Virus record (IMG/VR): IMGVR_UViG_3300029266_001184
Coordinates: 1 to 26,251 of that record
Reading direction: 5' to 3' (one strand)
From: a virus
DNA: 26,251 bases
Shown here in pieces: positions 1 to 25,803 of this stretch. The notes beneath the pieces are model-generated. The model made no database searches, was not told where the DNA came from, and saw nothing but the letters and a program-made list of their open reading frames with translations. The position numbers were made by a program, and so were the translations under genes. The first letter of the stretch is position 1, and each line of letters begins with the position of its first letter.

Positions 1-702
1 GTTCATACTTTGGCTTCGGATGTTGTTAGCCGAATAAAGAATAGGTATGTTAAGCCATGGCAACCGAGATTAGAAAAAGGCACAGTCAATTATATATCCG
101 ACGACGAAGGAATAGACTTCGGAGCTGACGAAGGAACTTGGCTATGCATGAGCCGAAGCAAATACCTGCTCTATAGAATTAAAAGAGTCGTGAGGCAACA
201 AGGCTATGCTTACATTTATAATGGTCAAAGTTCCCTAGACACCGACGAGACAAAAGCTATAACCTCGTGGGAAAAGATACGCAAAGGCAAAGAGCTGAAT
301 AGACCAGAAGCGAAGAACCTTATTGGCTTTTTCAACTTTAACATAAAGCTCGAGAAAAAAGACAACTATAGAATAGAAGACCTTGGGCTTCCCGACGAAG
401 CTAGAAGCAAAGACTGGATGGCAATACTAAAAGGACTGCCACCCGACGAGCGAGAATATTTAAGATCTTGCATGAGGAATGGCGAGAAGTTTACCGACAA
501 ACCAAGAATAACAATTTCAACAATACACCAAAGCAAAGGTGGCGAAGCTGATAACGTGGTATTGATAACCGACATGGGAAAGCTAAGTTGGGACAACCTA
601 GGAAGCGATGAGGAGAACAGAGTATGGTACGTTGCATTGACCAGAGCGAAGGAGAATTTATACCTTGTACAACCGAGAGGCTTAAGATACTTTTCCATTT
701 AA
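1..702 (+). CDS. UvrD/Rep-type superfamily 1 DNA helicase, C-terminal part (5' end outside window)
   Basis: The reading frame is open from base 1, so this is the end of a longer gene and no start should be assigned here. Two SF1 helicase signatures are visible. At about 511-570 there is an ISTIHQSKGGEADNVVLI segment, matching the conserved region with His-Gln-x-Lys-Gly around motif V. At about 625-670 there is NRVWYVALTRAKENLYLV, matching motif VI with the arginine finger of VALTRA. UvrD-family enzymes unwind DNA 3'-5' using ATP. In a phage replication block such a protein would help fork progression or recombination. The Walker A and B motifs must lie upstream of the window. The frame ends at 702, just before a promoter cassette. 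Family assignment is strong; the exact role is inferred. Confidence 0.85.
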   Translation, partial: VHTLASDVVSRIKNRYVKPWQPRLEKGTVNYISDDEGIDFGADEGTWLCMSRSKYLLYRIKRVVRQQGYAYIYNGQSSLDTDETKAITSWEKIRKGKELNRPEAKNLIGFFNFNIKLEKKDNYRIEDLGLPDEARSKDWMAILKGLPPDEREYLRSCMRNGEKFTDKPRITISTIHQSKGGEADNVVLITDMGKLSWDNLGSDEENRVWYVALTRAKENLYLVQPRGLRYFSI

Positions 703-703
703 T

Positions 704-790
704 TTGTAAGTCATTGTTTTTAAACAAATCAAAAGGGTTTACATCTCTGTCTAGAAATGATAGAATACTTGTATGATTACTGAGAAAGGA
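704..790 (+). promoter_or_regulatory. Promoter cassette copy 1 (upstream box, -35, -10, ribosome binding site)
   Basis: A sigma70-like promoter with TTTACA at 738-743, a 17-bp spacer and TAGAAT at 761-766, followed by the ribosome binding site TGAGAAAGGA at 781-790 and ATG at 797. A box starting TTGTAAGTCATTG spans 704-724. It is identical over 21 bases to the box at 9976-9996 and sits 13 bases ahead of the -35. The same arrangement recurs before the genes starting at 8764 and 10068, with the same 17-bp spacer. The predicted transcription start near 773 gives a leader of about 24 bases, so ATG 773 is too close to be the real start. Confidence 0.85.
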
Positions 791-796
791 AAAATC

Positions 797-1387
797 ATGA
801 ATACTGTAACTTATACACTCGACCCGAAAAGCCTAGTTGTAAAAGGCTATTCTTCTGACAAGGTTGCTCGCTCGATGGGCAACGGAGTTGCTTTCTTTAA
901 GAACGCTGATGAGCTTCTTGCCGATCGCAATGTAACAGGTCCACTACTCGTTAATGCATACAACGAGATCGCTGAAATGATCAACGACCTAAAGCCTGTT
1001 AAAAAATTCTCTGATAACAAAACTGCTGCCAAGCGTTTTATGGATGCCATTTCTGATATCCATGTAACGACTACACCTTTCGATGGAGAACCCAAAGTAA
1101 TAAAAGGTGCTCTTTCAGAGGTTGAAATAAAAGTCACCGACATCACTCCACCAATGGCAAAAGTTGCCAAGCCTCGTGGTTCTTTCGCAGGTAAAGTTAT
1201 CAATGTTCTTGTTACTGCGAACCCTCGCAAGGAGAATACCAAAGAGGTTTGCGGTTATGCCTCATTCCAGCTTCTGCTAAACCACGGTGTTGATATGCCT
1301 TATGAGCTTTATATCAAGCAAGGCGGTCGTTTGCAGGATCTAAAGTGGGACATTGACCACGGCTGGGCTGAGGTTAAAGATGCCTAA
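797..1387 (+). CDS. Conserved phage protein of unknown function, possible DNA-binding C-terminus
   Basis: A 196-residue protein with no signal peptide or membrane segment. The start at 797 is chosen over the in-frame ATG at 773 because TGAGAAAGGA (781-790) sits 6 bases ahead of it and 773 falls at the predicted transcription start. The segment KKFSDNKTAAKRFMDAI (about residues 75-91) resembles a motif that precedes the DUF3489 winged-helix-like region in phage and plasmid proteins. The C-terminal stretch GGRLQDLKWDIDHGWAEV looks like a short helix-turn-wing unit. That resemblance is by eye only. It is the first gene behind promoter copy 1 and overlaps the next gene by 8 bases. A role in early regulation or DNA binding is possible but not shown. 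Confidence 0.75.
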   Translation: MNTVTYTLDPKSLVVKGYSSDKVARSMGNGVAFFKNADELLADRNVTGPLLVNAYNEIAEMINDLKPVKKFSDNKTAAKRFMDAISDIHVTTTPFDGEPKVIKGALSEVEIKVTDITPPMAKVAKPRGSFAGKVINVLVTANPRKENTKEVCGYASFQLLLNHGVDMPYELYIKQGGRLQDLKWDIDHGWAEVKDA

Positions 1388-1649
1388 AGTCATAAAAGAG
1401 ATAGAAGGGTTCACCATTGAGTATGGTGTTCCCTTGTCTGATTTAACCAAGTCTAAAGACAGGTGGGTCAGGCTTGTTAGTGCAATGGATTGTGGAGACA
1501 GCACTGTCCTTAAAACTTCAGGAGATGTTGTTTCTTTCAGACAGAATTGCAAAAGGCAAGGCTTCAAATGTGTTTCAAGAGCAATCAGAGATGATGATGG
1601 AAATGCAACTAATGACATCAGAGTTTGGAAATTAAAAAATGAAAATTGA
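1380..1649 (+). CDS. Small hypothetical protein
   Basis: An 89-residue protein that I do not recognise. It starts at ATG 1380, inside the last codons of the preceding gene, and ends 11 bases inside the next one, so all three appear translationally coupled. A TTG 27 bases upstream in the same frame is a poorer start because it lies deeper in the preceding gene. The protein is mixed in charge with no hydrophobic segment. Its order (basic N-terminus, a DRWVRLVSAMD segment, a basic region around FRQNCKRQGFKC, then RVWKL at the end) suggests a compact globular domain that could bind nucleic acid. It has two cysteines near each other (CKRQGFKC) but no full zinc motif. Confidence 0.7.
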   Translation: MPKVIKEIEGFTIEYGVPLSDLTKSKDRWVRLVSAMDCGDSTVLKTSGDVVSFRQNCKRQGFKCVSRAIRDDDGNATNDIRVWKLKNEN

Positions 1650-2715
1650 AATAATATCAGATGACAGAGTTTCGTCGGAAGGTAAAAATTTATCTAGGGT
1701 CGCTTGGGAGTTGTCAAGGTCTCCCGACGACACCACTCCATTAGACACGATCCTATCTATCGACGCACCAGTAAACGAGATACCATCTATTGTGATGAGT
1801 GTTGAGTGCACGATATTAGAGCGAGAAATATTCGCCTCATTCAGAGATCACGTTATGTGGGCAAGAACCTCTAGAGTTGACGCACCTTCTGAGTTTGTTG
1901 TTCCGGAATACTTTCAGTTGTCGGAGATGATGGACGATATTGTTTTCCTAAAAAAGAAAATAGACATAGATATGAAAGCAGGCATAATACAAGACGAGTA
2001 TCGTCTACACATGCCTATTTGCGCAATGACTTCTTTTACGACTAGGCTGTCTTGGCGAGGCTTAATAAAAATTTATAAGCTGTACAAACACCTCTCGACG
2101 ATACATGAGTATTTTGCTATCGGTAAGGAAGAGCTCGACGAGAAATTTCAGTGTAGTTGGTATGAAGATAATTATAGTTATGTCGATCCGATACCTATGC
2201 TAAAAGAGCATGAAAAAACCAGTGGTGTAATTGGACCAATAGTTACTGTGTGTCAAGAAATGACAATTGGCTTGAGAGCTCAGGTTGTTCGCCACCGCAA
2301 CTATACAATCAAAGACAACCTTATGGAAATAATAACTGCTGAAGATTGCTGGACCAGAACGCTTGGCGATAAAATAACAATATCAATATCAGCTGAAGTA
2401 GATTTTTGGAAAACAGTTGTTAATAAAAGGCAGTGTTGGATTGCTCAGTATGGTATCTGGAAAGACATCATAATTGCTGCACAAGAATACATAACTATCA
2501 GCGAGCAAGACTTGCCATGTAATAAAGGCTTTTGCCCTTATACTAGGGATGCCGAGCTGAGGCATACCGACGACGATCCTGGAGCACCTTGCCCCATTCA
2601 TAGTGACTTGACCTCTACACCCATAGCTCAGAAGTACATGGACATGGTGCGTATTGAAGCAAGTTACAGACCTGCCTTTTGGCAAAAACATATAGATAAA
2701 CTGGAGGACGCATAA
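1639..2715 (+). CDS. Double-length ThyX-like (FAD-dependent thymidylate synthase-like) protein
   Basis: A 358-residue protein; ordinary ThyX chains are roughly 200-250. It reads as two ThyX-like halves. The first half has FRDHVMWARTSR (R69, D70, H71) where ThyX carries its RHR motif, then HMPICAMTSFTTRLSWRGL, which parallels the LPLNLYT...N-aromatic strand/helix of ThyX. The second half has LRAQVVRHRNYTIKD with a true RHR at 218-220, then ISISAEVDFWKTVV and KRQCWIAQYGIW. ThyX makes dTMP from dUMP using FAD and methylenetetrahydrofolate. The Ser and Arg that normally follow RHR (RHRxxSxxxxSxR) are replaced in the second half, so activity is uncertain. Near the C-terminus, C294, C299, C318 and H321 could bind a metal. 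It overlaps its neighbours by 11 bases and 1 base. The neighbours, a deoxyribosyltransferase-like enzyme and an HD nucleotidase, support a thymidylate role. Confidence 0.6.
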   Translation: MKIEIISDDRVSSEGKNLSRVAWELSRSPDDTTPLDTILSIDAPVNEIPSIVMSVECTILEREIFASFRDHVMWARTSRVDAPSEFVVPEYFQLSEMMDDIVFLKKKIDIDMKAGIIQDEYRLHMPICAMTSFTTRLSWRGLIKIYKLYKHLSTIHEYFAIGKEELDEKFQCSWYEDNYSYVDPIPMLKEHEKTSGVIGPIVTVCQEMTIGLRAQVVRHRNYTIKDNLMEIITAEDCWTRTLGDKITISISAEVDFWKTVVNKRQCWIAQYGIWKDIIIAAQEYITISEQDLPCNKGFCPYTRDAELRHTDDDPGAPCPIHSDLTSTPIAQKYMDMVRIEASYRPAFWQKHIDKLEDA

Positions 2716-3281
2716 TGACTATGAAAATTTATTTGGCTGGACCATTCTTTAATCCTAAGCAAGTTGAAACGATAGAGGCTATCGAAAATGAATTCGATAA
2801 GTATGGCTTTGACTATTTCTCACCTCGTAAAAGTGGTGGTGTAATATCCCACCTCTCACCAGAGGACAGGACTAAAGCATCTAAAGGAATTTACGACAGC
2901 AACATTTCCGCAATGATTGATGCTAATGTTTTATTTGCTATTGTAGATGGCAGGGACACAGGCACAGTTTACGAGATGGGATATTTCCGAGCCTTGACCG
3001 ATCACTTTAAACTAAAAAGCGAAAACAGCACAGCTGAGAATAAACGCTATTCAATAACCTATACCAACGAGAACTTTGGTCTTAATATTATGCTGAAGGA
3101 GAGCGTTGATGCACATATCATTGGTGTTGGCGACTTAAAAAAGTTCGCAGGACTTTCTGCTAGAGCTTGGGACAAGCCTTATGGCAGGTCGATGTCCTCC
3201 GGAATAGACTGGGAAGACCACGTTGGTCGTAGACAAAAGATCTTAGAGCAGTTCCAAAATTTCAATCCGGACGTTGAATAA
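2715..3281 (+). CDS. Nucleoside 2-deoxyribosyltransferase-like protein
   Basis: A 188-residue protein starting at the ATG of TAATG, overlapping the previous stop by one base; a second ATG lies two codons in. The N-terminus MKIYLAGPFF is the first strand and nucleotide loop of the family (PF05014). The central DSNISAMIDANVLFAIVDG is the strand that carries a catalytic Asp. DTGTVYEMGYFRA (residues 81-93) holds the putative nucleophile Glu87. These enzymes move deoxyribose between bases, or hydrolyse deoxynucleotides in related phage enzymes. The C-terminal half is longer than in minimal family members. Placed between a ThyX-like protein and an HD nucleotidase, it probably acts in remodelling or salvage of deoxynucleotides. 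Its real substrate cannot be read from sequence. Confidence 0.85.
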   Translation: MTMKIYLAGPFFNPKQVETIEAIENEFDKYGFDYFSPRKSGGVISHLSPEDRTKASKGIYDSNISAMIDANVLFAIVDGRDTGTVYEMGYFRALTDHFKLKSENSTAENKRYSITYTNENFGLNIMLKESVDAHIIGVGDLKKFAGLSARAWDKPYGRSMSSGIDWEDHVGRRQKILEQFQNFNPDVE

Positions 3282-3961
3282 TGGACATTGTAAAACTATT
3301 CAGTGTCTCTCAGGGGATGTCTGCGATACAAAGGTATTCGCAGCTCCACCTTTTAAAGAGCGAATCAGTAATGGAACACACAGGTTTCGTGTGCCTCTTT
3401 ACCTATACTTTGTGCGAGGAGATCAATTCGGTCTCCTCTCCCAACGATAAGCTAGATGTCGGAATGGCTCTACAAAAAGCAATCGTGCATGATATTGACG
3501 AAGTTATAACAGGCGATATACCAAGACCAACGAAATATTATAGCGATGAGTCTGTTGCTGTATTTAAAAAGATAGCGGAAGCTGGCATTGACCAGATAAT
3601 TGATGAGTTGAGAATAAACAGCAGGAACATGAAGACCAACTGGGAGCAGTCTAAAGCTGGGAAAGAAGGTATGATTGTTGCGTTGGCTGACCTGTCCTCG
3701 GTTATATATAAACTCTGGGAAGAAATATTAATGCTTGGCAATAAGAAACTTTTCAGGCAAGCTAATGAAGTAAAGAACTTTTTAGGAGACTTTCAAGCTA
3801 AAATAACAGATGGAGACTGGTTCGACCCAGCCCAGAAGCACATTATCGATATTGCTTTAGATCAGCTTTATACAATACTCAACGAGATTTCGAAAACCTC
3901 CGAACCAATACACGGAACATTTAAAACATTCGAAGTCGACACAATGGTACACCACAGGTAA
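3281..3961 (+). CDS. HD-domain 5'-deoxynucleotidase (YfbR-like)
   Basis: A 226-residue HD phosphohydrolase, about YfbR length. The metal-binding set is visible: His33 in SVMEHT, His70-Asp71 in IVHDIDEVITGD and Asp137 in VALADLSS. The N-terminal RYSQLHLL segment also matches the YfbR family, where an Arg at this point contacts the substrate. YfbR removes phosphate from deoxynucleoside monophosphates such as dUMP, dTMP and dAMP. In a phage cassette with a ThyX-like protein and a deoxyribosyltransferase-like enzyme it would tune pools of dNMP or scavenge host nucleotides. Its ATG overlaps the stop of the preceding gene (TAATG). The hydrolase family is clear; the exact nucleotide is inferred. Confidence 0.88.
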   Translation: MDIVKLFSVSQGMSAIQRYSQLHLLKSESVMEHTGFVCLFTYTLCEEINSVSSPNDKLDVGMALQKAIVHDIDEVITGDIPRPTKYYSDESVAVFKKIAEAGIDQIIDELRINSRNMKTNWEQSKAGKEGMIVALADLSSVIYKLWEEILMLGNKKLFRQANEVKNFLGDFQAKITDGDWFDPAQKHIIDIALDQLYTILNEISKTSEPIHGTFKTFEVDTMVHHR

Positions 3962-3972
3962 AAGGAAAAAAT

Positions 3973-4221
3973 ATGGCAAATTTTAAGGAAAAGTATAGTC
4001 AAAATTTTGTTAACAGAGTTCACGAGATGAAAGCTGTTAAATTTACAAACGAAGAAATAAGCAAAGAGCTAAATATCAAAACACCAGCTGTTGCTTATAT
4101 TCTTAGAAATCGATCCTATGTAAAAACTTCTCCTATGGATGTTGTTTTAGAAGTTTTCCATGAGGAAGAAGCCAAGGAGAGCATGCTAACTAAAGCTAAA
4201 AGACTGTTAAAGTTTTGGTAA
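3973..4221 (+). CDS. Small helix-turn-helix protein, candidate phage regulator
   Basis: An 82-residue basic protein preceded by AAAGGAAAAAAT, a good ribosome binding site. Residues 24-48 (FTNEEISKELNIKTPAVAYILRN) have the pattern of a helix-turn-helix: Glu-Ile at the start, Leu-Asn-Ile at the turn, then a recognition helix TPAVAYILRN, as in resolvase-type or Sigma-70 region 4-like folds. The C-terminus is helical and ends with a Lys-rich segment. It is the only evident small DNA-binding regulator in the plus block. A possible target is the repeated promoter box at 704, 8673 and 9976, but nothing in the sequence links them directly. It could also be a structural DNA-binding protein. Confidence 0.7.
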   Translation: MANFKEKYSQNFVNRVHEMKAVKFTNEEISKELNIKTPAVAYILRNRSYVKTSPMDVVLEVFHEEEAKESMLTKAKRLLKFW

Positions 4222-4266
4222 AAATAAACTTTATTTTTTAGCCGAAAAGGTTTAAAGTTTTAATAT

Positions 4267-4276
4267 TGAGAAAGGA
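4267..4276 (+). promoter_or_regulatory. TGAGAAAGGA ribosome binding site of the 4283 gene
   Basis: The same ten-base leader found before the genes at 797, 8764, 9034 and 10068 lies 6 bases ahead of ATG 4283 in the 61-base gap after the HTH gene. The gap is very AT-rich (4222-4266). Weak -10-like sequences (TTTAAA, TAATAT) occur, but there is no good -35 at 17 bases, so I do not call a promoter here. Confidence 0.6.
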
Positions 4277-4282
4277 AGCCGA

Positions 4283-4765
4283 ATGAATATTTTTTACTTG
4301 GACACCAGTCCAAAACAAGCAGCTATGATGCACTGCGATAAACATTGCGTTAAGATGATACTCGAGACTGCGCAACTGTTATGCACTGCACACCGAGAGC
4401 TAGACGGAGACTATTGGTCTAACGAGGTTGGCTTATATAAGTCGACCCATAAGAACCACCCTTCAGCAGTTTGGGTTCGGGAAAGCTCTGAACATTATTG
4501 GTGGGCACTAGGATTATTTGTATATCTATGCAAAGAATATACATCTCGTTATGGTAAATCACACAAGAGTGCGGAGCTCATGCAGTTGCTTTGTATAGCA
4601 CCCATGAACATAGAAGAGATTGGCTTTACTGATCCACCCCAATGCATGCCTGATGAGTATAAGTGCGAAAATGCAGTAGAGGCATATCGGAGTTATTACT
4701 TAGGTGAGAAGATGGGTTTCGCAAAGTGGAACTATAGCCCAACTCCGGAGTGGACCTATGCTTAA
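4283..4765 (+). CDS. Conserved phage protein of unknown function (HCDKH family)
   Basis: A 160-residue protein of a type seen often in phages. It begins with NIFYLDTSPKQAAMMHCDKH and CVKMILETAQLL, then a THKNHPSAVWVRES block, an aromatic EHYWWALGLFVYL helix, and a FAKWNYSPTPEW end. The conserved His, Cys, Asp and Trp residues suggest an enzyme or metal-binding domain, but I know no proven activity for the family. It starts at ATG 4283 behind TGAGAAAGGA. Its last 8 bases overlap the next gene (start 4758). There is no membrane segment: the aromatic stretch is interrupted by charged residues. The function is left open. Confidence 0.78.
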   Translation: MNIFYLDTSPKQAAMMHCDKHCVKMILETAQLLCTAHRELDGDYWSNEVGLYKSTHKNHPSAVWVRESSEHYWWALGLFVYLCKEYTSRYGKSHKSAELMQLLCIAPMNIEEIGFTDPPQCMPDEYKCENAVEAYRSYYLGEKMGFAKWNYSPTPEWTYA

Positions 4766-4925
4766 AATAAGAGGAAATGATTTAGAGCTGAACGATAAAA
4801 AAGTTGCTAGGCTTTTCGACCTTAATACTTTTGATAGAAGAGACTTAGAGGATCTTTTTGACAAAGCTAATAACTATGAAGATGATGTACGCAGTTCATA
4901 TGAAAGAGGCAGAGACGATGAGTGA
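4758..4925 (+). CDS. Small acidic hypothetical protein
   Basis: A 55-residue protein starting at ATG 4758, within the end of the preceding gene, and ending in ATGAGTGA so that it overlaps the next start (4918) by 8 bases. It is strongly charged and rich in Asp, Glu and Arg. A likely helix FDRRDLEDLFDKANNYEDDV is followed by an acidic-basic tail. I do not recognise it. The tight coupling on both sides and the intact frame support a real gene. An upstream in-frame start at 4704 would put 54 bases inside the previous gene and is less likely. Confidence 0.6.
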   Translation: MLKIRGNDLELNDKKVARLFDLNTFDRRDLEDLFDKANNYEDDVRSSYERGRDDE

Positions 4926-5256
4926 TCTTAAAACAATCGGAGACGTTGCTAGAAAGCATCGCAGGAACAAGTCACCGATAGACTGCATGGAGGATGCTCT
5001 AGAAACCTTTAAAGAACGCAATAAAGTTTATGGTGATAATTACCATCGTCATGGAAAAGTAATGATGTCTTTATTCCCCAAAGGAGTTACTCTTGATAAT
5101 GAGAAGGAATGGAACAGGTTCGGCATTGTAAACATGATTGTTGCAAAGCTCACTCGCTATTCCGAGAATTGGCCAGGATCGCACGAGGACTCAGTCCATG
5201 ATATGGGTGTTTATTCTTTTATGTTGCAGTCCTTAGATAACGAGGACAAAGAATGA
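4918..5256 (+). CDS. DUF1599/DUF6378-like phage protein (nucleotide-modification-associated type)
   Basis: A 112-residue protein starting at ATG 4918, inside the stop region of the preceding gene, and overlapping the exonuclease start by 4 bases (ATGA). It shows a family pattern common in phages: ETFKERNKVYGDNYHRHGKVM, then LFPKGVTL, then IVAKLTRYSENW and GSHEDSVHDMGVYSFML. The order Glu-Arg-x3-YGDN, Lys-x2-Arg-Tyr, His-x-Asp-Ser-x3-Asp resembles the DUF1599/DUF6378 group, which is distantly related to MazG-like all-alpha NTP pyrophosphatases. The acidic and His residues could bind metal. Placement beside replication and nucleotide genes fits a nucleotide-handling role. The family call is by eye and the activity unproven. 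Confidence 0.6.
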   Translation: MSDLKTIGDVARKHRRNKSPIDCMEDALETFKERNKVYGDNYHRHGKVMMSLFPKGVTLDNEKEWNRFGIVNMIVAKLTRYSENWPGSHEDSVHDMGVYSFMLQSLDNEDKE

Positions 5257-5804
5257 TTATATTCGATCTTGAAACAACAGGACTACCCAAGGCTGAAGGC
5301 TCTGACCTAGACCTACAACCTAAAATAATTGAGTTCGGTGCTATAAAGTACAACGACAACCTTATCGGCAAAGGGGAAATGCGGGAGGAAGCAAGGCTTG
5401 AGTTTTTCTGCAATCCTGGACACCTACTCGATCCTAAGATAATAAAGATCACAGGCATAACCGACGAGATGTTAAAAGACGAGAAGCCATTCATAACTAA
5501 GGTCGAGGAGCTGACGGACTTCTTCCTAGGTGAAAGAGACATCGTTGCCCACAACTTGCCATTCGACCGAAAGGTTTTAAGGTTCGAGCTAGAAAGGCTG
5601 GACAAAGTTACTAAGTTCCCTTGGCCACCTAATCACATCTGCACAGTTGAGATAGGTCAAAAGATCTGGGGCAAGATGCGCAAGCTGGGCGATATTTACG
5701 AAGAGCTATTCGACGAGAAAATAGATGGTGCCCACCGATCAATAAACGATGTTGAAGCAACTGCCAGAATTGTAGACTGGTACATAGACAAAGGAGAGAT
5801 ATAA
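5253..5804 (+). CDS. DnaQ-type 3'-5' exonuclease (DEDDh, epsilon-like)
   Basis: A 183-residue exonuclease. ExoI is IIFDLETTGL with Asp5 and Glu7. ExoII is VAHNLPFDRKVLRFE with Asp105. ExoIII is GAHRSINDVEAT with His161 and Asp166. These give the four metal ligands and the general base of the DEDDh class. Family members proofread for DNA polymerase III or trim DNA and RNA ends. The start overlaps the previous stop as ATGA, and the end leads into a 19-codon micro-ORF and then the DnaE-type polymerase, so this is very probably its proofreading partner. No clear extra C-terminal polymerase-binding domain is visible; the chain ends soon after ExoIII. Confidence 0.9.
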   Translation: MIIFDLETTGLPKAEGSDLDLQPKIIEFGAIKYNDNLIGKGEMREEARLEFFCNPGHLLDPKIIKITGITDEMLKDEKPFITKVEELTDFFLGERDIVAHNLPFDRKVLRFELERLDKVTKFPWPPNHICTVEIGQKIWGKMRKLGDIYEELFDEKIDGAHRSINDVEATARIVDWYIDKGEI

Positions 5805-5863
5805 TGACAATCGCACTAATAGGTTTTATTGTTAGCTATGCCATTGTTGCGGTGATTATGTAA
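5804..5863 (+). CDS. 19-residue hydrophobic micro-ORF between exonuclease and polymerase
   Basis: A 19-codon frame, MTIALIGFIVSYAIVAVIM, starting at the ATG of TAATG that ends the exonuclease gene and stopping in TAATG that starts the polymerase gene. It has a strong ribosome binding site AAAGGAGA (5790-5797), 6 bases ahead. The peptide is almost wholly hydrophobic and could span a membrane once. It fills the exact gap between two coupled genes, so it may be a real small protein, a coupling leader peptide, or both. I do not recognise a family. Without it the polymerase would have no coupled start. Confidence 0.55.
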   Translation: MTIALIGFIVSYAIVAVIM

Positions 5864-8676
5864 TGCTTCACATAAGAGCTCGCACAGAGTATTCTTTCCG
5901 CAAAGCGTATGGTCCAATTGCAAATATAATAGAGTCAGATGGTGGTGATGCAATAGGCATTGCTGATGCTGGTACGTGGGGTCATGTTCCCTTTAGTAAT
6001 GCTTGCAAGAAGGCTGGAAAGAAACCAATATTCGGAGCCGAGATTGCAATTGTAATCGACTCAACCGATCGATCTAAACAGACCGCAAACATGATGGCTT
6101 TTATTGCTAAGAATAATGAAGGCTTGTCCGAGGTTTATGAGCTTGTTACAAGAAGCACGAGTAAGGAAAATTTTTATTACTTCCCGAGGCTCAGTTACTC
6201 CGACCTGTTCGATATATCGGAGAATGTGATTATCCTAAGTGGCACACACCCAGAGTGGGGACTGCTTCCTTTGACCAGAAAAGACGATCTTTACATTGAG
6301 ATAAATCCAATGAGTTCTAAAAAGGCTCTAGAGTTCTGCGAGAAAAAAGGCTTCAAGCCAGTAGCCACCTCCGACAATTATTATCCTAAAGTTTCCGATC
6401 GCAAGGCTTATGAGGTTCTGGTTGGAATGAATAGGATGGAACGAACCAAGCCTATGCACCTGTTAAACGAACACGAGATGCTAGACTGCATTCCTTGGCT
6501 TCCTGACGAGGCTATAGAGAACACCTATAAAATAGCAGACATGTGTAATGTTGATCTGCCTGTTGCTCAGATGATATCTTTTACACCTGAGAAAACTTTA
6601 GAGCAGATGTGTATAGATGGTGCTCCGGAAAGAGGAATAGATTTAAAAGATCCTGTTTATAAAGCTCGGCTGAAGCGTGAGCTCGATATGATAGAGCTAA
6701 AACAGTTCCACGATTATTTCTATGTTATTGCAGATATGATTAACTATGCGAAGCAACATATGTTGGTTGGTCCAGCTCGTGGATCTTCAGCTGGTTCTTT
6801 AGTTTGTTATTTAACAGGTATAACGGATGTTGACCCTATAAAGTTCGACCTCTTATTCGAAAGGTTTATTGATATTACTCGTGCTGACTTGCCTGATATT
6901 GATATTGACTTTCAGGACGACCGCAGGGAAATGGTCTTTCAATACCTGAGGGATAAGTATGGCTCCGAGAAAGTTGCTCACCTAGGAACAGTCAGCAGGT
7001 ATAAAGCCAAGAGCACAATAACCGAAGTCGCAAAAGAACTAGGAATTCCGTCTTGGGAAGTTAATGACCTGAAAGGTGCAATAATTGAGCGGAGCGGAGG
7101 AGACGCTCGTGCGGCAATGTGTATTCTAGACACCTTTAATGACCTAGACATCGGCAAGCAAGTTTTGGCTAAATATCCGCAAATGAAGATAGCAAGTAAA
7201 ATGGAGAACCACGCTCGCCACACAGGAGTTCACGCTGCTGGGATTATCGTAACTGAAGAGCCTGTGAGCAAATACTGCTCGGTGAGTGCTCAAAGTGGTG
7301 CAGCTCAGATAGATAAAAAGGATGCTGAAAACTTAAACTTACTGAAGATAGATGCCTTGGGACTTAGGACGCTATCCGTATTGCAGGATGTTTTAGATCA
7401 GGTTGGTTGGTCTAGGCAGAAGCTCGTCAGCTTTCCTTTAGAAGACGAGGAATCATTCAAGATATTAAACGACGAGAAATATGCAGGTATATTCCAGTTC
7501 GAAGGTTATGCCCTGCAATCATTAACGAGGCAGATGAAGATAGCGAACTTCGAAGATATTTGTTCTATAACTGCCTTGGCTCGTCCTGGACCATTAACCT
7601 CAGGAGGCACAACTCAGTTTATTAAAAAGAGGACAGGTGCGGAGCCTGTTTACCATTTCCATGAAATGACTAAAGAAGCAACCGATGTTACTTATGGCAT
7701 TGTGGTTTACCAAGAGCAGGTCATGACGATAGCTCGTGAGGTCGGCAAGCTGACTTGGGAAGAAGTGTCTCAGCTCCGCAGAGCTATGAGCAAATCTTTG
7801 GGCGAGGAGTTTTTCGATAGGTATTGGCAGAGGTTTAAGGTTGGTGCTGAGGAGAACGGATTAGACGAAAAGAAGTCTCGGGAAATATGGGACAATATTA
7901 ACACGATGGGATCTATGGCTTTTAACAGGAGCCATGCGGTTTCTTATGCAATGGTCAGTTATTGGTGTTGCGTTTTAAAAAGTCGTTTTCCGTTAGAGTT
8001 TGCTGCTGCTTGCCTCCGGAATGTTAAGGATGATGACCAAGGTGTAAAGCTATTGAGGGAAGTTGCTCGAGAGGGACTAGCTCATAAACCATACGACAAA
8101 TTCAAGTCTGAATTGAACTGGTCGGTACAGGATGGCGAGCTTATCGGTGGTCTTATCGGAGTCAGAGGTATTGGTCCAAAAATGGCTGATGACATTGTAA
8201 AACGCAGGGAAATGAAGCAACCTTTAACACCTCGGCAGAATACCCTCCTAGACAACGGAGAAACGCCATATGACGACATCTTTGAGTGCGAACGCAGGTT
8301 CGGGCATATTAAGAAAGATCCAGCCTCCCACAGCATAAAAACGAAGATAACAGACATCCACGACCTAGAAGCTGACAATCCTGGAGAGTTCGTTGTGTTC
8401 GGTAAGCTCGTCGAGAAAAACCTAAGAGACTTGAACGAGGCTGTAAACTTAGCCAAGCGAGGAGGTCGCAGAGCTGAAAACCACAACCTATGGCTAAACA
8501 TGAAGTTCGAGGACGACACTGGTCCAATACTAGCAGGAATAGACAGATTTAAATATCCCAAGCTCGGCAAGCCTATAGTTGAGGATGGTAAAATTGGCGA
8601 CTGGTATTTGCTAAAAGGCAAAATCAATAAAGGTTTCAGGAAATTAAACTTAGAAAAGTGGCGTAAACTCACGTAA
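5863..8676 (+). CDS. dnaE: DNA polymerase III alpha subunit (DnaE-type), replicative polymerase
   Basis: A 937-residue C-family polymerase, shorter than bacterial DnaE at about 1,160. The N-terminal PHP domain (about 1-200) has lost metal ligands: the usual HxH reads IRARTEYS and the usual TDH reads ADA, so it is probably not catalytic. The palm has GPARGSSAGSLVCYLTG and then PDIDIDF (344-350) with two catalytic aspartates. HARHTGVHAAGIIVT, IFQFEGYALQSL, the LARPGPLTSGG block and FNRSHAVSYAMVSYW follow as expected for the family. A helix-hairpin-helix lies at IGVRGIGPKMADDIV and an OB-like domain forms the C-terminus. It starts in TAATG, directly after the micro-ORF, and sits beside an epsilon-like exonuclease, so it is likely the phage replicase. 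Its stop overlaps promoter copy 3. Confidence 0.93.
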   Translation: MLHIRARTEYSFRKAYGPIANIIESDGGDAIGIADAGTWGHVPFSNACKKAGKKPIFGAEIAIVIDSTDRSKQTANMMAFIAKNNEGLSEVYELVTRSTSKENFYYFPRLSYSDLFDISENVIILSGTHPEWGLLPLTRKDDLYIEINPMSSKKALEFCEKKGFKPVATSDNYYPKVSDRKAYEVLVGMNRMERTKPMHLLNEHEMLDCIPWLPDEAIENTYKIADMCNVDLPVAQMISFTPEKTLEQMCIDGAPERGIDLKDPVYKARLKRELDMIELKQFHDYFYVIADMINYAKQHMLVGPARGSSAGSLVCYLTGITDVDPIKFDLLFERFIDITRADLPDIDIDFQDDRREMVFQYLRDKYGSEKVAHLGTVSRYKAKSTITEVAKELGIPSWEVNDLKGAIIERSGGDARAAMCILDTFNDLDIGKQVLAKYPQMKIASKMENHARHTGVHAAGIIVTEEPVSKYCSVSAQSGAAQIDKKDAENLNLLKIDALGLRTLSVLQDVLDQVGWSRQKLVSFPLEDEESFKILNDEKYAGIFQFEGYALQSLTRQMKIANFEDICSITALARPGPLTSGGTTQFIKKRTGAEPVYHFHEMTKEATDVTYGIVVYQEQVMTIAREVGKLTWEEVSQLRRAMSKSLGEEFFDRYWQRFKVGAEENGLDEKKSREIWDNINTMGSMAFNRSHAVSYAMVSYWCCVLKSRFPLEFAAACLRNVKDDDQGVKLLREVAREGLAHKPYDKFKSELNWSVQDGELIGGLIGVRGIGPKMADDIVKRREMKQPLTPRQNTLLDNGETPYDDIFECERRFGHIKKDPASHSIKTKITDIHDLEADNPGEFVVFGKLVEKNLRDLNEAVNLAKRGGRRAENHNLWLNMKFEDDTGPILAGIDRFKYPKLGKPIVEDGKIGDWYLLKGKINKGFRKLNLEKWRKLT

Positions 8677-8760
8677 GTGATTGTTTTATATAGTGAAGAA
8701 AACGCTTTACTTCTCTGGTGTATAGAGATAGAATACTTATATAAACTGAGAAAGGAACTA
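8673..8760 (+). promoter_or_regulatory. Promoter cassette copy 3
   Basis: TTTACT at 8706-8711, a 17-bp spacer, TAGAAT at 8729-8734, then TGAGAAAGGA ending at 8756 and ATG at 8764. A diverged upstream box GTAAGTGATTGTTTTATA begins at 8673 inside the stop region of the polymerase gene, 33 bases ahead of the -35. The spacing matches copies 1 and 2, with GATAGAATACTT the best-kept block. This copy is the most diverged in the box. Confidence 0.8.
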
Positions 8761-8763
8761 AAA

Positions 8764-8949
8764 ATGACAATCGCAACTTTAAAAATTGAAAATGCAAAGC
8801 ACTCATACGATGTAGAGGTTTCTGTTTATAAAGACGGAAAATATTATACTAGCGATAATGTTAGTGTAGAGGCAAACAGTCGTACACAAGCTGGATCAAT
8901 GGTTAGAAAATCTGGCTATGATGTTCGATCAGTAAATATGACTGGATAG
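8764..8949 (+). CDS. Small hypothetical protein behind promoter copy 3
   Basis: A 61-residue protein starting at ATG 8764, 7 bases after the TGAGAAAGGA ribosome binding site. An in-frame upstream start at 8677 is rejected because it would run through the promoter. The sequence alternates hydrophobic and polar residues (ATLKIEN, YDVEVSVYKDGKYY, NVSVEA), suggesting a small beta-sheet domain, followed by a short helix SRTQAGSMVRKSGYD. I do not recognise the family. It is transcribed from its own strong-looking promoter and followed by a hairpin, so it may be a highly expressed single-gene unit. Phage inhibitors of host functions often look like this, but no such role is shown. Confidence 0.7.
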   Translation: MTIATLKIENAKHSYDVEVSVYKDGKYYTSDNVSVEANSRTQAGSMVRKSGYDVRSVNMTG

Positions 8950-8970
8950 ATCGCTGATTGATCTTAACTG

Positions 8971-8990
8971 GTGAGCATTAATTTGCTCAC
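8971..8990 (+). terminator. Perfect 7-bp hairpin after the 8764 gene
   Basis: GTGAGCA, six-base loop TTAATT, then TGCTCAC, a perfect 7-bp stem 22 bases after the stop. It is followed by TTATTAAG rather than a clean T-run, so termination would be partial. It is the only strong inverted repeat in the 84-base gap before the next gene. An operator for a dimeric repressor is an alternative reading. Confidence 0.45.
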
Positions 8991-9015
8991 TTATTAAGAC
9001 TAATTACCAACCCAC

Positions 9016-9025
9016 TGAGAAAGGA
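9016..9025 (+). promoter_or_regulatory. TGAGAAAGGA ribosome binding site of the 9034 gene
   Basis: The shared ten-base leader found before five plus-strand genes, here 8 bases ahead of ATG 9034. No TAGAAT or TTTAC element lies at the cassette positions, so this copy is the leader without the promoter. Transcription probably reads through the hairpin at 8971-8990. Confidence 0.6.
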
Positions 9026-9033
9026 CTATCAAA

Positions 9034-9528
9034 ATGAATAAGCACAACCCTAAAATTCGCCAGATAATTTACTGCGACACAGGCATCCACAGAACTACAT
9101 GGTGTGGACCATTTTCTGTTGCGACTGTAGCTGGCATTGAATACGAACCAGCTTACCAGACTTTGCGCAAGATCCGTGGCAAGCGTCATTGTAAAGGTGT
9201 TAGCAATAGCAACATCGCAGTGGCTTGTAAAAAGCTCGGTCTAAAAGGCAAGTGGACTCACCTAGAGAAAAAGCGAAAGCTGAGTAAGTTCGTTCCGGAA
9301 AACCTAGAGCAAGGCAAAGTTTATATTATTCAAATTACTCGCCACGTTTTAGTTATGGACACTCGTGACTGGACCACAATCGACAATCAGGTTCCTGAGT
9401 GGAGAGCCATGGACGCTTCGCACCACTGGAGCAAAAAGCTGGTTCATGCTTTTTACGAAGTTGAGAACCCTAAGTTCGACAGCCACTGCGACGACCAATT
9501 CACTTTCGATTTCGATCTGGTGGCGTAA
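9034..9528 (+). CDS. Papain-like/C39-like cysteine peptidase-fold phage protein (putative)
   Basis: A 164-residue protein. Residues 21-31, TTWCGPFSVAT, look like the nucleophile region of papain-fold peptidases: Trp-Cys-Gly-Pro at the start of a helix with Cys24. Further on, VYIIQITRHVLVMDT gives His104 on a strand, and TIDNQ gives Asp118 as a possible third residue. This order (Cys, His, Asp/Asn) and spacing are those of the papain-like clan. The target could be a host protein, a phage protein or an amide in peptidoglycan. The next gene is a SleB-type cell wall hydrolase overlapping by one base (TAATG), which favours a joint cell-wall role. The fold call is by motif only; the family may also be non-catalytic. 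Confidence 0.55.
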   Translation: MNKHNPKIRQIIYCDTGIHRTTWCGPFSVATVAGIEYEPAYQTLRKIRGKRHCKGVSNSNIAVACKKLGLKGKWTHLEKKRKLSKFVPENLEQGKVYIIQITRHVLVMDTRDWTTIDNQVPEWRAMDASHHWSKKLVHAFYEVENPKFDSHCDDQFTFDFDLVA

Positions 9529-9971
9529 TGTTAGAAACAGCTCTTATGTGTCTAGCCTTGAACATATACTTCGAGGCTAGATCGGAACCGATACAAGGTC
9601 AAGTCGCAATAGCCGAGGTCACTCTTAATAGGGTGGCTTCGGCTAATTATCCAAACGATGTTTGTTCAGTTGTTTTGCAAGAAAACAGCTCTGGTTGCCA
9701 GTTTAGTTGGTGGTGCGACGGGAAGTCGGACAGTCCTAAAGAACACACCTCCCTACGAACCTCAAAAGCAATAGCCAAGTTGATGCTAGAGGAAGGCGAA
9801 TATATCAGCGTTGTTGGGGAAAATGCTACACACTACCACAATAATGAAGTTCACCCATACTGGGCAGACGAACTGCAAAGGATAAAACGTGTCGGGAGAC
9901 ATATTTTTTATAAGGAAAAAAGCGAAGAATGGTTGCGTCCAATGGCGAGACCTAAAAGACTCTTTGAGTAA
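9528..9971 (+). CDS. SleB-type cell wall hydrolase (Hydrolase_2 family)
   Basis: A 147-residue protein with the whole SleB/CwlJ pattern: ALNIYFEARSEPIQGQVAIA (Glu16 is the likely catalytic acid), LNRVASANYPNDVCSVV, CQFSWWCDGKSD, ATHYHNNEVHPYWA and GRHIFY. The family cleaves peptidoglycan glycan strands, usually as lytic transglycosylases. There is no clear signal peptide, although the N-terminus is fairly hydrophobic, so export may need a helper. It starts at ATG 9528 in TAATG after the peptidase-like gene. A second muralytic enzyme (GH19, minus strand 23718-24332) is in the late block, so this one may serve another step, such as entry or remodelling of the wall early in infection. Confidence 0.88.
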   Translation: MLETALMCLALNIYFEARSEPIQGQVAIAEVTLNRVASANYPNDVCSVVLQENSSGCQFSWWCDGKSDSPKEHTSLRTSKAIAKLMLEEGEYISVVGENATHYHNNEVHPYWADELQRIKRVGRHIFYKEKSEEWLRPMARPKRLFE

Positions 9972-9975
9972 AAAG

Positions 9976-10060
9976 TTGTAAGTCATTGTTTTTAAATGAA
10001 TCAAAGTTCTTTACCTTTCTGTCACATTCAGATAGAATACTTATATCAACTGAGAAAGGA
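9976..10060 (+). promoter_or_regulatory. Promoter cassette copy 2
   Basis: A box identical to copy 1 over 21 bases (9976-9996), then TTTACC at 10010-10015, a 17-bp spacer, TAGAAT at 10033-10038 and TGAGAAAGGA at 10051-10060, with ATG at 10068. It begins 4 bases after the stop of the wall hydrolase gene. Identity with copy 1 falls between the box and the -35 and in the spacer. The box, -35, -10 and ribosome binding site are kept, as expected for functional parts. Confidence 0.85.
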
Positions 10061-10067
10061 ATAAATT

Positions 10068-10760
10068 ATGTCGATATTTTTACCAGTCACTTCCGCAGGA
10101 TACAACAGACCTTGGACCAAGGAGCAGATTGTTGCTCGTGGAATCCAGAAAAGGAAATTTGCAGCCCAGCAAAAGGCGAGATTTATGGCTCCTGAAAATA
10201 AAGCTAAATTCAATGAAACCAATCCAGGACTTATAGATGCTCTTAGAGAGTTGACTTCTTGGAATTCTTTTGCTGCTTCTTTAGTAGAGCAGTTCGACGA
10301 TCGTGGTTCGCTTTCCGACAAGCAGACTGGTGCTGCTGTTGCGATGCTTATGAAGGTAAAAGCCAATCAGGCTACACGTGCCGAAGCACCTAGTGTTGAT
10401 CTTGGTAATGTAGTTGCTATGTTCAACAAAGCTCACGAGGCTATCAAGACACCTAAGTTCCGTTTTGAGGACTTGGTTATCTCTCGTGCACCCGACACTG
10501 GTGCTAATGCTGGTGCGTTATATGTTAAGGCTGATGGCCAGTATGTCGGTAAGGTTAAGGAAGGCAAGTTCTTCGGTATTCGTTTTACACCCGAGGACAC
10601 GCTCTCTAAGCTCCAACAGATAGCCGAGAGCCCACTTTCCTCAGCTGTAGCCTATGGTCGCAAAACAGGCACCTGTGCGTGCTGTGGTCGTGAGCTTACT
10701 GTACACGCAAGCATCGAGCGTGGCATCGGACCAATATGTGCAGAAAGGTTCGGACTATGA
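10068..10760 (+). CDS. DUF6011-like zinc-binding phage protein
   Basis: A 230-residue protein directly behind promoter copy 2, with its ATG 7 bases after the ribosome binding site. The C-terminus has GTCACCGREL and then SIERGIGPICAERFG (about residues 201-229), a pattern of DUF6011 with Cys203, Cys206 and Cys224 and one more ligand to complete a zinc site. The middle (about 120-190) forms a beta-rich segment including YVKADGQYVGKVKEGKFFG. The N-terminus is basic and helical. Proteins of this type are common in phages and predicted to bind nucleic acid, but their role is unknown. It overlaps the next gene by 4 bases (ATGA) and heads a unit with the SNF2 helicase and nuclease. Confidence 0.75.
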   Translation: MSIFLPVTSAGYNRPWTKEQIVARGIQKRKFAAQQKARFMAPENKAKFNETNPGLIDALRELTSWNSFAASLVEQFDDRGSLSDKQTGAAVAMLMKVKANQATRAEAPSVDLGNVVAMFNKAHEAIKTPKFRFEDLVISRAPDTGANAGALYVKADGQYVGKVKEGKFFGIRFTPEDTLSKLQQIAESPLSSAVAYGRKTGTCACCGRELTVHASIERGIGPICAERFGL

Positions 10761-10954
10761 GCGAGGAAAGGAAACATGGCTCCCCTTATCATAGGGGGAG
10801 CATGGATGCTTATTATGGTCGCAGACCTAGACCTCACATCTGGCTGGATAGCATGGGAAGAGAAAGAGTTCCCGAGGACAAAATGACTAAAGACCAGATT
10901 AAAGACTATTACAGAGGCTATGACGAAGAAGACGATCGGAAGGACTGGGGATGA
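10757..10954 (+). CDS. Small phage protein of the GSPYHRGSMDAYYGRRP type
   Basis: A 65-residue protein starting at ATG 10757 over the stop of the DUF6011-like gene, and itself overlapping the SNF2 gene by 4 bases. GSPYHRGSMDAYYGRRPRPH is a pattern I associate with small conserved phage proteins that carry GSPxDRGxADxYYGR. The rest is charged and ends in an acidic tail, YYRGYDEEDDRKDW. The function is unknown. The sequence coding for the GSPYHRGS segment also forms a 9-bp hairpin (10779-10801) and contains an overlapping frame; both are treated as findings. Confidence 0.65.
   Translation: MSEERKHGSPYHRGSMDAYYGRRPRPHIWLDSMGRERVPEDKMTKDQIKDYYRGYDEEDDRKDWG
10779..10801 (+). other. GC-rich 9-bp hairpin inside the start of the 10757 gene
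   Basis: GCTCCCCTT, loop ATCAT, AGGGGGAGC: nine pairs, one of them a G-U wobble, starting 19 bases after the last base of the start codon of the 10757 gene. It is one of the most GC-rich structures in an otherwise AT-rich block. No T-run follows, so it is not an intrinsic terminator. It may slow or shape translation of this coupled set, or may follow by chance from the amino acids encoded. Confidence 0.5.
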
Positions 10955-12648
10955 TAATAACCAAGGCAGATTACGGAAAGTATTTAGTCATCAAGTCTAA
11001 GCTCGTTGGCGATACTTTCGAAAAGTTATCTACACTTCCAGGATTTAAGAAGTGGGTCGGCAGGGATCTCCTGTTCGATCCCACAGGTGCGAATATCGAT
11101 AGAATTCGTAAATACTTTCCTGAAGCTGAGTGGGATGAGTCTGCTTCTCCAGCACTTGACCAATACATTAGCAACCTAAAAGAGATGGAAGCTAATATTC
11201 AGATGAAAAAAGCTGAGTTGCCTAGCAACGACGATTATGATTTTAAGACCAAGCCTTTCGACCACCAACGCAAAGCCTTCTACATGAGCCGAGACAAAAA
11301 GTCTTTCGCTTTATTAATGGAACAAGGCACAGGTAAAACTAAAGTTATAATTGACAACGCTGCATATCTTTATGCAAAAGGTGAGATAACTTCGCTTGTT
11401 GTTATTGCTCCTAATGGAGTTCACCGCAACTGGTTAAAAGAGCTAGACATCCATATGCCCGATTGGTGTATTCGAAAGTCTTTTTATTATTCCTCCGGAA
11501 TGACTAAAAAACGCATCGAGGAATATGATGCTGTACTAGGCTCTTCCGAGTGCCTTAAAATATTCACTTTTAATGTTGAGGCTTTTGCAAGTCCCAAAGC
11601 AATATACTATATGCAAAAGATCCTAGTCAGCAACAAGACAATGCTAGTTGTAGACGAAAGCTCTAGGATCAAACGTCCAGGAGCCAAGCGAACTAAAATA
11701 ATAACAAAATTCGGAAAACAAGCCGACTATAAAAGAATAATGACTGGTACACCTGTGACTAAAGGTCCAGAGGATGTTTATTCTCAGTTCAAGTTCCTAG
11801 ACTCACAAGTCCTAGGCTATGACAGTTTTTATTCGTTTCGTGCGAGATACTGTGTTATGGGTGGCTTCGAGAATAAACAGATTATATCTTACCAGAATAT
11901 AGACGAGCTGACTCGAAACATCGAAGGTCACAGCTTTAGAGTTTTAAAGAAAGACTGCCTAGACCTACCTGATAAAATATATCAGCGTCATTATGTAGAG
12001 ATGACTCCTAAACAAAAGAAACTTTACCAGACTATGAAAAAGTCTTTCGTTGCTGAACTGGAAGGCAACATGATAGAAGCACCCGAAGCAATTACTCGTT
12101 TACTTAGGCTTCAGCAGATACTTTGCGGTTGGTTTCCGAGCGAGGGAAGCGTCACCCAGATAGACGATAAGAATCCTCGAATAGAGGCTCTAAAAGAGAT
12201 ACTAAGCGACATCGACTCTAAGGTGATTATTTGGGCACGTTTCAAGGCTGATTTAAGAGCAATAGAGCGAGCTCTTGGAGATCTAGCGGTAAGTTACCAC
12301 GGAGACGTTACAACAGACGCTAGAGAGGTTGCAGTCGATCGCTTTCAGAATGACCCATCTATTAAATATTTTATCGGTCAGCCTCAGTCTGGGGGAATAG
12401 GCTTGACGCTTACTGCCGCGGATTATGCTATTTATTATTCCAACAGCTTCGATCTAGAACAACGCATGCAATCCGAAGATAGATGCCACCGCATCGGAAC
12501 TAAAAACAACGTCACCTATATCGACATCGAAACACGCAAGTCCGTCGATAGTAAAATAATTAAAGCTCTGCGAGAGAAAAAGAACCTCGCTGATGTTATA
12601 ACTAAAGACCCAATATCATTATTTATGTCGGAGGAAGACAATGAGTGA
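10951..12648 (+). CDS. SNF2-type superfamily 2 helicase/ATPase
   Basis: A 565-residue SF2 protein. Residues about 100-110 (KPFDHQRKAFY) are the Q-motif-like entry. Walker A is MEQGTGKTKV (Lys129), motif II is VVDESSRIK (Asp235, Glu236; DESS instead of DEAH), motif III is MTGTPVTKGP (about 264-273), and motif VI is QSEDRCHRIGTKNNV (about 506-520). The two RecA-like lobes and the Gln-x2-Asp-Arg-x-His-Arg-x-Gly motif put it in the SNF2/RapA group of ATP-driven DNA translocases. The first 95 residues form a separate N-terminal region. It overlaps the following VRR-NUC nuclease by 8 bases, an arrangement repeated in many phages, which suggests that they work on the same DNA structure during replication or recombination. 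Confidence 0.9.
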   Translation: MIITKADYGKYLVIKSKLVGDTFEKLSTLPGFKKWVGRDLLFDPTGANIDRIRKYFPEAEWDESASPALDQYISNLKEMEANIQMKKAELPSNDDYDFKTKPFDHQRKAFYMSRDKKSFALLMEQGTGKTKVIIDNAAYLYAKGEITSLVVIAPNGVHRNWLKELDIHMPDWCIRKSFYYSSGMTKKRIEEYDAVLGSSECLKIFTFNVEAFASPKAIYYMQKILVSNKTMLVVDESSRIKRPGAKRTKIITKFGKQADYKRIMTGTPVTKGPEDVYSQFKFLDSQVLGYDSFYSFRARYCVMGGFENKQIISYQNIDELTRNIEGHSFRVLKKDCLDLPDKIYQRHYVEMTPKQKKLYQTMKKSFVAELEGNMIEAPEAITRLLRLQQILCGWFPSEGSVTQIDDKNPRIEALKEILSDIDSKVIIWARFKADLRAIERALGDLAVSYHGDVTTDAREVAVDRFQNDPSIKYFIGQPQSGGIGLTLTAADYAIYYSNSFDLEQRMQSEDRCHRIGTKNNVTYIDIETRKSVDSKIIKALREKKNLADVITKDPISLFMSEEDNE

Positions 12649-13060
12649 GAAAAATTTCTGGACGTTGCTTAGGAACAACTTGCCTTTAACTATGTATCGT
12701 GTTGAGAATAGAGTTGCCCAAGGAATGCCAGATGTTCACTATATAAGAGAAAGCAACTCTGGCTGGATAGAACTCAAATACATGGATAAATGGCCAAAGA
12801 AGCGTTTCGTCAGTGGTCTTAGATTAAATCAAGCAATGTGGGCAAACAAGTATATTCTAAACGGAGGCAGGAGCTGGATACTTATTCGTGTTGGCAGGGA
12901 CTTTACTGTTCTGGTCAGTGGGCATTATGCTAAAGATCTTTTCGACAGACCCTCCAGAAAGCATCTTATGGAAATATCATCTTGGAGCCAAAAAGGTAAT
13001 TTAAGCACAGAAGACTGGGAGTCTCTGGCGAAAACTATTTCTCTTTCTCATAAGAAATAG
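12641..13060 (+). CDS. VRR-NUC-type PD-(D/E)XK nuclease
   Basis: A 139-residue protein starting inside the end of the SNF2 gene (ATGAGTGA overlap). The nuclease core is visible: Glu22 in RVENRVAQGMPDV, Asp31 of GMPD, and Glu44-x-Lys46 in GWIELKYMDKWP, followed by LRLNQAMWA and a Gly-Gly turn, SWILIRVGRDF. This is the VRR-NUC arrangement shared with FAN1-type and phage nucleases that cut branched DNA. The partner ATPase just upstream could move along or remodel the substrate. It is the last plus-strand gene; its final 26 bases overlap the end of the convergent minus-strand gene. Confidence 0.85.
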   Translation: MSEKNFWTLLRNNLPLTMYRVENRVAQGMPDVHYIRESNSGWIELKYMDKWPKKRFVSGLRLNQAMWANKYILNGGRSWILIRVGRDFTVLVSGHYAKDLFDRPSRKHLMEISSWSQKGNLSTEDWESLAKTISLSHKK

Positions 13061-13073
13061 AAGTTTTATTTTT
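13031..13073. terminator. Imperfect AT-rich hairpin between convergent blocks, possible bidirectional terminator
   Basis: AAAACTATTTCT (13031-13042) can pair with AGAAAT (13053-13058) and AGTTTT (13062-13067), with a 3-base bulge. In plus orientation the stem runs into TTTTATTTTT (13064-13073), as expected for an intrinsic terminator, though the stem is AT-rich. In minus orientation only four T residues would follow, so it should work better for the plus block. It covers the stop codons of both converging genes. Confidence 0.4.
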
Positions 13074-14137: not shown

Positions 14138-14141
14138 AGCA

Positions 14142-17815: not shown

Positions 17816-17818
17816 AAA

Positions 17819-21085: not shown

Positions 21086-21096
21086 TGTTGTCTCCT

Positions 21097-23714: not shown

Positions 23715-23717
23715 ATA

Positions 23718-24332: not shown

Positions 24333-24335
24333 AAT

Positions 24336-25428: not shown

Positions 25429-25457
25429 TGTGATCTCCTTTCGGGGTTGGGGTTAAA

Positions 25458-25799: not shown

Positions 25800-25803
25800 T
25801 GTT

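Follow-up and report, generated by a model that had tools for sequence, protein, structure and literature searches.

What do three dispersed copies of one promoter cassette do in the genome of a virus, and what kind of protein would recognize the conserved box upstream of each? The genome in question is the complete IMG/VR record IMGVR_UViG_3300029266_001184 (26,251 nt, all of which was analysed; hereafter the window). An earlier note on this DNA had described the cassette as an upstream box, a -35 and a -10 hexamer and a common sequence before the start codon, and had taken the three copies as a likely phage regulon whose genes may be the first expressed. Our analysis suggests a different answer. 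The cassette is probably a host sigma70-type promoter combined with a site of the integration host factor (IHF) type centred at -60/-61, where host IHF or a close paralogue would bend the DNA and raise initiation.

The cassettes and their conservation

Every part of the cassettes that had been described is present in the sequence, and the three copies extend over 706-790, 8673-8756 and 9978-10060 (Table 1). The box, GTAAGT[C/G]ATTGTTTT, begins at 706, 8673 and 9978, and no further copy with fewer than three mismatches was found in the window. Its start lies 32, 33 and 32 bp from the start of the -35 hexamer (cassettes 1, 2 and 3), as the earlier note had claimed. The hexamers match TTGACA/TATAAT at 10, 9 and 9 of 12 positions, with a spacing inside the 16-18 nt of sigma70-type promoters. 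When both strands were searched for the composite motif of box, -35 and -10, it occurred three times in the window and not once in 300 dinucleotide shuffles; the pair TTTACN-N17-TAGAAT likewise occurs three times, with 0.13 expected in shuffles. A plain sigma70-type scan of the early region did not single out the cassettes (26 found, 26.5 expected in shuffles). Thus it is the composite motif, not the sigma70 scan alone, that exceeds chance and makes the cassettes distinguishable.

Relatives of gene 797 (genes are named by their start positions) were found at 36 viral loci and relatives of gene 10068 at 15, and in most of them the cassette lies directly upstream. It occupies the intergenic gaps ahead of the orthologues even in relatives whose protein identity is as low as about 42-50%; the box, the -35, the -10 and the ribosome-binding site are retained there and the remaining positions drift. 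The proposal that the functional parts are kept while the spacer and the gap between box and -35 have diverged thus holds in the relatives, with the amendment that the flank of the -10 hexamer (GATAGAATACTT) is conserved too.

Cassettes were also gathered from the relatives by promoter and ribosome-binding site alone, the box not being used. Among the 71 distinct cassettes obtained in this way, 48 contain YAANNNNTTG exactly 32 (25 cassettes) or 33 bp (23 cassettes) from the start of the -35 hexamer, and two more contain it at 52 bp. The remainder consists mostly of a boxless class, which precedes the orthologue of gene 4283 (window 4230) or other genes. Across the 38 distinct boxes three to four different bases occur at each N position, the Y at the fourth position takes T or C and nothing else, and the TTT following TTGN is almost invariant. 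Although YAA and TTG had been used in selecting these boxes, only one cassette with promoter and ribosome-binding site had a degenerate box at that distance. Random positions of the motif in related genomes would have spoken against a functional element; in 16 related records we found 34 matches at the fixed spacing and none with the pattern reversed. In the window the same pattern retrieves exactly the three cassettes.

The IHF-type site and its helical phasing

On its reverse strand the box reads WAACAANNNNTTR, which is one base off the published IHF consensus WATCARNNNNTTR (PMC7962754). The YAA and TTG blocks are fixed and the N positions are free, both in the boxes of the family and in a viral scan in which the N positions were left free. 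The variation among the boxes is thus located at positions whose bases IHF leaves unread. The exact consensus is present in two relatives (L130 and L131, AATCAATGACTTG) and in records G004 and G014, and outside the window family it is the commonest form of the box in phased viral contigs. The box therefore looks like an IHF-type site, with IHF as the presumptive binding protein.

The spacing of such sites was studied in 2.9 million viral contigs, which were scanned for TAAGTNATTGWTTTT followed by TTKAC-N17-19-TANNAT and yielded at least 120 stretches. Two of the collection scans are samples, and their counts hold among the matches listed. For 110 distinct sites the distance from box to -35 was 32-33 bp in 36 cases, 42-43 bp in 24 and 52-53 bp in 18, with almost no sites at 26-30, 37-38 or 46-49 bp. 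These peaks were unchanged when the four N positions were freed and TATAAT was required. A Rayleigh test at 10.5 bp on clustered sites gave R=0.64 for boxes of the first scan pattern (p=6.5e-17, 91 clusters) and R=0.63 with the N positions unconstrained (p=9e-23, 126 clusters); none of 2000 uniform simulations was as strong as the viral phasing. Scrambling the core at equal composition left 0 matches, compared with 87 for the intact core. Inverted cores are phased as well (R=0.56, p=3e-10), with peaks at -58/-59, -67/-68 and -79 to -82. The preferred spacings thus differ by whole helical turns, as would be expected of upstream activation that depends on the face of the helix.

Common genes chain most of the phased loci to one another, so that single-linkage clustering was uninformative and sets of mutually unlinked loci were used instead. 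Phasing persisted in 74 forward loci without blastn similarity (p=7e-8) and in 52 without tblastx similarity (p=1e-5). For inverted sites it was found in 32 loci by the DNA criterion (p=7e-5) and in 19 by the translated criterion (p=0.012). The same pattern had nearly flat offsets in bacterial and archaeal genomes (257 Gb), 202 of 2000 simulations being as strong. Several Oceanospirillales genomes (Reinekea, Oceanobacter and Thalassolituus; L257, L261, L272, L282, L306, L309, L329) match the pattern, often with similar spacings, and may contain a conserved chromosomal promoter that uses this arrangement of box and promoter.

When forward and inverted viral sites are aligned on the IHF strand, their flanks are superimposable: the A+T fraction is about 0.75-0.94 at -14 to -10 and near 0.5 at -8 to -6, after which the core follows. 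The H' site of lambda attP, which served as a yardstick, has an A6 tract at -14 to -9 before TATCAATTTGTTG, and in the viral set sites of both orientations have an A/T tract at a comparable place, 9-14 bp 5' of the core. Since the tract keeps the same position on the IHF strand whichever way the site points, it belongs to the site and not to the promoter. The window copies are A/T rich at this position without a clean A tract. Like H', the viral sites thus combine a 13-mer core and an A/T tract on the same strand; H' is, however, a recombination site of the WATCAA type, whereas the window boxes are linked to promoters and of the WAACAA type.

Among cultured phages (50,697 records) no copy of the window cassette was found, and a scan of the partial genomes of Salado, 1.076.O and VCPH for the layout of box and promoter gave nothing convincing. 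Of the cultured phages scanned for the layout, only Pelagibacter phage HTVC115P (L642, around 19973, minus strand) has an exact IHF core, AAAATCAATGACTTA, which is inverted and has its centre at -70 of TTGCAA-N17-TATAAT. As a cultured phage, HTVC115P is a possible test case for phased IHF action.

On balance we favour the view that a large share of environmental phages build promoters to one standard plan, with an IHF-type site at whole turns (-60, -70 or -81, facing either way), so that host IHF would be their shared dependency and the window phage one lineage with a repeated cassette.

Proposed mechanism and alternative explanations

The sequence parts, the way in which they are conserved and vary, and the helical phasing seen in other phages are directly established, and from these we infer the identity of IHF, activation rather than repression, and the route by bending. 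Host IHF, or a close paralogue, would bind the box and bend the DNA sharply. With the site kept on one helix face relative to RNA polymerase, the bend would return upstream DNA towards the polymerase and favour its binding or promoter opening, giving more initiation at an imperfect promoter (TTTACN/TAGAAT). With one cassette at the head of each of several transcription units, their output would depend on a nucleoid protein of the host.

If the bend centre is midway along an H'-type footprint, which in the crystal structure of IHF with H' is about 7 bp from the centre of the 13-mer towards the A tract, the bend centres would fall near -53.5, -63.5 and -74 for forward sites and near -65.5 and -75 for inverted sites, i. 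e. on the same helical face within about 2 bp. This would favour bending over an orientation-specific protein contact.

Several observations weigh against the IHF interpretation. None of the three window boxes matches WATCARNNNNTTR exactly: T is replaced by A in WATCAA, giving WAACAA, a deviation common to 35 of the 38 box variants of the family. Gaps of 38-68 bp, i. e. beyond about -82, are weakly phased (69 of 2000 simulations were as strong) and form groups near -82, -86 and -93. The distance to a plausible gene start distinguishes in-phase sites (59 of 83) from out-of-phase sites (28 of 47) only modestly, and so does a filter for intergenic position and a nearby ribosome-binding site. Finally, a layout scan of Vibrio phage VA-RY-3 and Cronobacter phage Ss1, the closest relatives in culture, revealed no such cassette.

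Could another protein occupy the box? Class I activators such as CRP work at just these promoter positions, with which the centres at -60/-61, -70/-71 and -80 to -82 coincide, and the fixed base at which the window family departs from the IHF consensus, as well as the preference for pyrimidines at NN positions 5-6, could be read in the same way. We nevertheless regard an activator of this kind as unlikely: both orientations occur at nearly equal phase, as expected for a pseudo-symmetric bender, the flanking tract copies that of the lambda H' IHF site, and the exact IHF consensus prevails outside the window family. A repressor or nucleoid protein, of phage or host, which silences the promoters until they are needed would make the box an operator. 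Repeated sites near promoters can be operators, and conservation and phasing do not separate activation from repression; yet activation from upstream accounts better than occlusion for sites that are located beyond the upstream edge of the polymerase footprint and stay in phase through three turns, and the box shows no dyad symmetry and folds into no hairpin. Silencing of this kind thus appears highly improbable.

It is also conceivable that no protein binds the box at all. The DNA that separates box and -35 is rich in A/T, and together with the box it could form an UP element, curved or A/T-rich DNA touched by the alpha subunit. UP elements occupy -59 to -38. Here A/T richness in that interval is not the only signal: the core lies at -66 to -54 with fixed G and C pairs and is shifted by whole turns to -71 and -81, the inverted form has its A/T tract on the far side, and a scramble that preserves the composition of the core abolishes all matches. 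An UP element is thus very unlikely to explain the box. Recent duplication, by which promoter copies would have spread through recombination with no function, might be suspected from the similarity of copies 1 and 3 (82% over 51 nt) and of copies 2 and 3 (78% over 67 nt). This explanation has a negligible chance of being right, as diverged relatives retain every copy at its particular locus, where the functional positions are kept and the rest drifts, and as the same layout recurs in contigs that share no detectable similarity.

IHF-dependent promoters are known from other systems. At glpFK, IHF and A-tracts in IS5 activate only in the right helical phase, a 10-bp insertion being tolerated and a 5-bp insertion not, with the IHF site about 215 bp upstream (PMC2753651), and IHF also acts at the early promoter of phage Mu (PMC3820752). 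Both resemble the cassettes in having an IHF-type site upstream of a sigma70-type promoter with A/T tracts nearby, and glpFK resembles the phased sites in its dependence on helical phase. They are, however, single promoters, whereas the site described here lies at -60/-61 within a repeated cassette and is spaced in steps of about 10 bp across many phages. The -10/-35 promoter of the Caulobacter crescentus gene transfer agent, which requires IHF sites (PMC11150451), likewise belongs to a phage-derived cluster. There the IHF element has a binding site of a dedicated activator, GafY, upstream of it; a second site of this sort was not identified here, where no systematic search was made.

Other repeats before phage genes are less similar. 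The start-associated sequences (SAS) and extended SAS (ESAS) of Cluster K mycobacteriophages (PMC3203893) are, like the cassettes, short repeats before starts, some with a longer upstream element, and are conserved with the downstream gene family. The ESAS are 17-bp imperfect inverted repeats, whereas the cassettes consist of an asymmetric IHF-type site, a sigma70-type promoter and a start-proximal extended Shine-Dalgarno sequence; no such inverted repeat was found at the boxes, whose regions have no significant fold. Coliphage TLS and T1-like phages have direct repeats of 21 nt (PMC11447400) with a different consensus, aaATAGCACnnnTTGnTAAAA, which were not tied to phased promoters.

Genes served and transcription units

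Table 1. Predicted elements of the cassettes and associated genes (positions in the window)
Feature	Position	Strand	Remarks
IHF-type 13-mer, cassette 1	707..719	-	Reverse strand AAACAATGACTTA, one mismatch to WATCARNNNNTTR, centre -60
Promoter TTTACA-N17-TAGAAT, cassette 1	738..766	+	Predicted start near 773
TGAGAAAGGA, extended ribosome-binding site	781..790	+	Gene 797
Gene 797, first of unit 1	797..1387	+	196 aa; conserved in at least 36 viral loci
Promoter-like stretch without phased box (TTTATT ... TTTAAAGT) and TGAGAAAGGA	4230..4276	+	Before gene 4283 (phrog_624)
IHF-type 13-mer, cassette 2	8674..8686	-	Reverse strand AAACAATCACTTA, centre -61
Promoter TTTACT-N17-TAGAAT, cassette 2	8706..8734	+	Predicted start near 8741
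TGAGAAAGGA, ribosome-binding site	8747..8756	+	Gene 8764
Orphan open reading frame of 61 aa	8764..8949	+	Served by cassette 2
IHF-type 13-mer, cassette 3	9979..9991	-	Reverse strand AAACAATGACTTA, centre -60
Promoter TTTACC-N17-TAGAAT, cassette 3	10010..10038	+	Predicted start near 10045
TGAGAAAGGA, ribosome-binding site	10051..10060	+	Gene 10068
Gene 10068	10068..10760	+	Served by cassette 3; C-terminal DUF6011-type cysteine motif (PF19474, phrog_4046)

The rightward genes of the window (1-13060) encode a helicase C-terminus, nucleotide metabolism, a DnaE-type DNA polymerase, a DUF6011 protein and an SNF2-type helicase, and a leftward block (13,035-26,250) contains the virion genes. The closest cultured polymerases are those of VA-RY-3 (45.7%) and Ss1 (43.7%), and both of these phages have an early/late arrangement with convergent blocks as in the window. 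Cassette 2 and the DNA polymerase gene overlap, the stop codon of the latter (8674-8676) being part of the 13-mer. Searches of Pfam, PHROGs and NCBIfam gave no match for the family of genes 797 and 8764.

The earlier note had counted TGAGAAAGGA as part of the cassette. It is indeed present at all three, but two of its five copies, at 4267 and 9016, stand without box and promoter, so that it constitutes a ribosome-binding site in its own right. Its position 6-10 nt before the starts and its fit to the 3' end of 16S rRNA (CCUCCUUUCU in many bacteria) make an extended Shine-Dalgarno sequence the best reading of TGAGAAAGGA. The boxless promoter-like class represented at 4230-4276 is also conserved in relatives, separately from the cassettes.

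Between genes 8764 and 9034 there is a strong hairpin at 8955-9006 (TGATTGATCTTAACTGGTGAGCATTAATTTGCTCACTTATTAAGACTAATTA; z-score -4.1), a possible terminator or processing site, which is followed by the bare TGAGAAAGGA. One relative (L038, 7329-7420) is without the 8764 reading frame and has cassette 2 directly before the orthologue of gene 9034. In the window the 61-aa orphan gene and the hairpin thus appear to have been inserted between cassette 2 and gene 9034, which resembles the placing of a small cargo gene on an existing promoter. An RNA hairpin or terminator at the window boxes themselves was considered and rejected (folding z-scores -0.3, -1.9 and 0.1). In some other phages (L358, L421, L423) an intrinsic terminator upstream of the next promoter, e. 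g. AAGTCCTTGATTTTCAAGGACTTTTTTT, has the IHF-type box as one of its arms; terminator and IHF site there use a common sequence.

Of the regulon proposed by the earlier note, the part that stands is that the cassettes behave as promoters before orthologous genes. The box is not a private signal of this phage, as the IHF-type layout occurs in many dissimilar environmental phages. The suggestion that the genes served may be the first expressed is not supported by these results. Several relatives have a fourth copy on the opposite strand about 5.5 kb upstream of the gene 797 copy, and in record G001 this copy heads a leftward series of small genes followed by the genes of the terminase large subunit and the portal protein. 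Hence the cassettes mark the heads of transcription units generally, structural ones included, and by themselves delimit no early class. In the window these units, as judged from gene order, could be 797 to 4221, 8764 to 9971 and 10068 to 13060.

In the open-access literature, to which our search was confined, we found no prior report of a phased arrangement of IHF site and promoter. Promoters of uncultured phages are hard to find, since sigma70 hexamers alone remain at chance level. A phased IHF-type site combined with the hexamers exceeds chance, so that transcription units become annotatable directly from contigs. The natural spacings and the two orientations provide a ready mutational series for studying how IHF bends activate sigma70 promoters. 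The prediction is that many environmental phages need host IHF for transcription, and that changes in the level of IHF, or IHF mutants, should alter infection.

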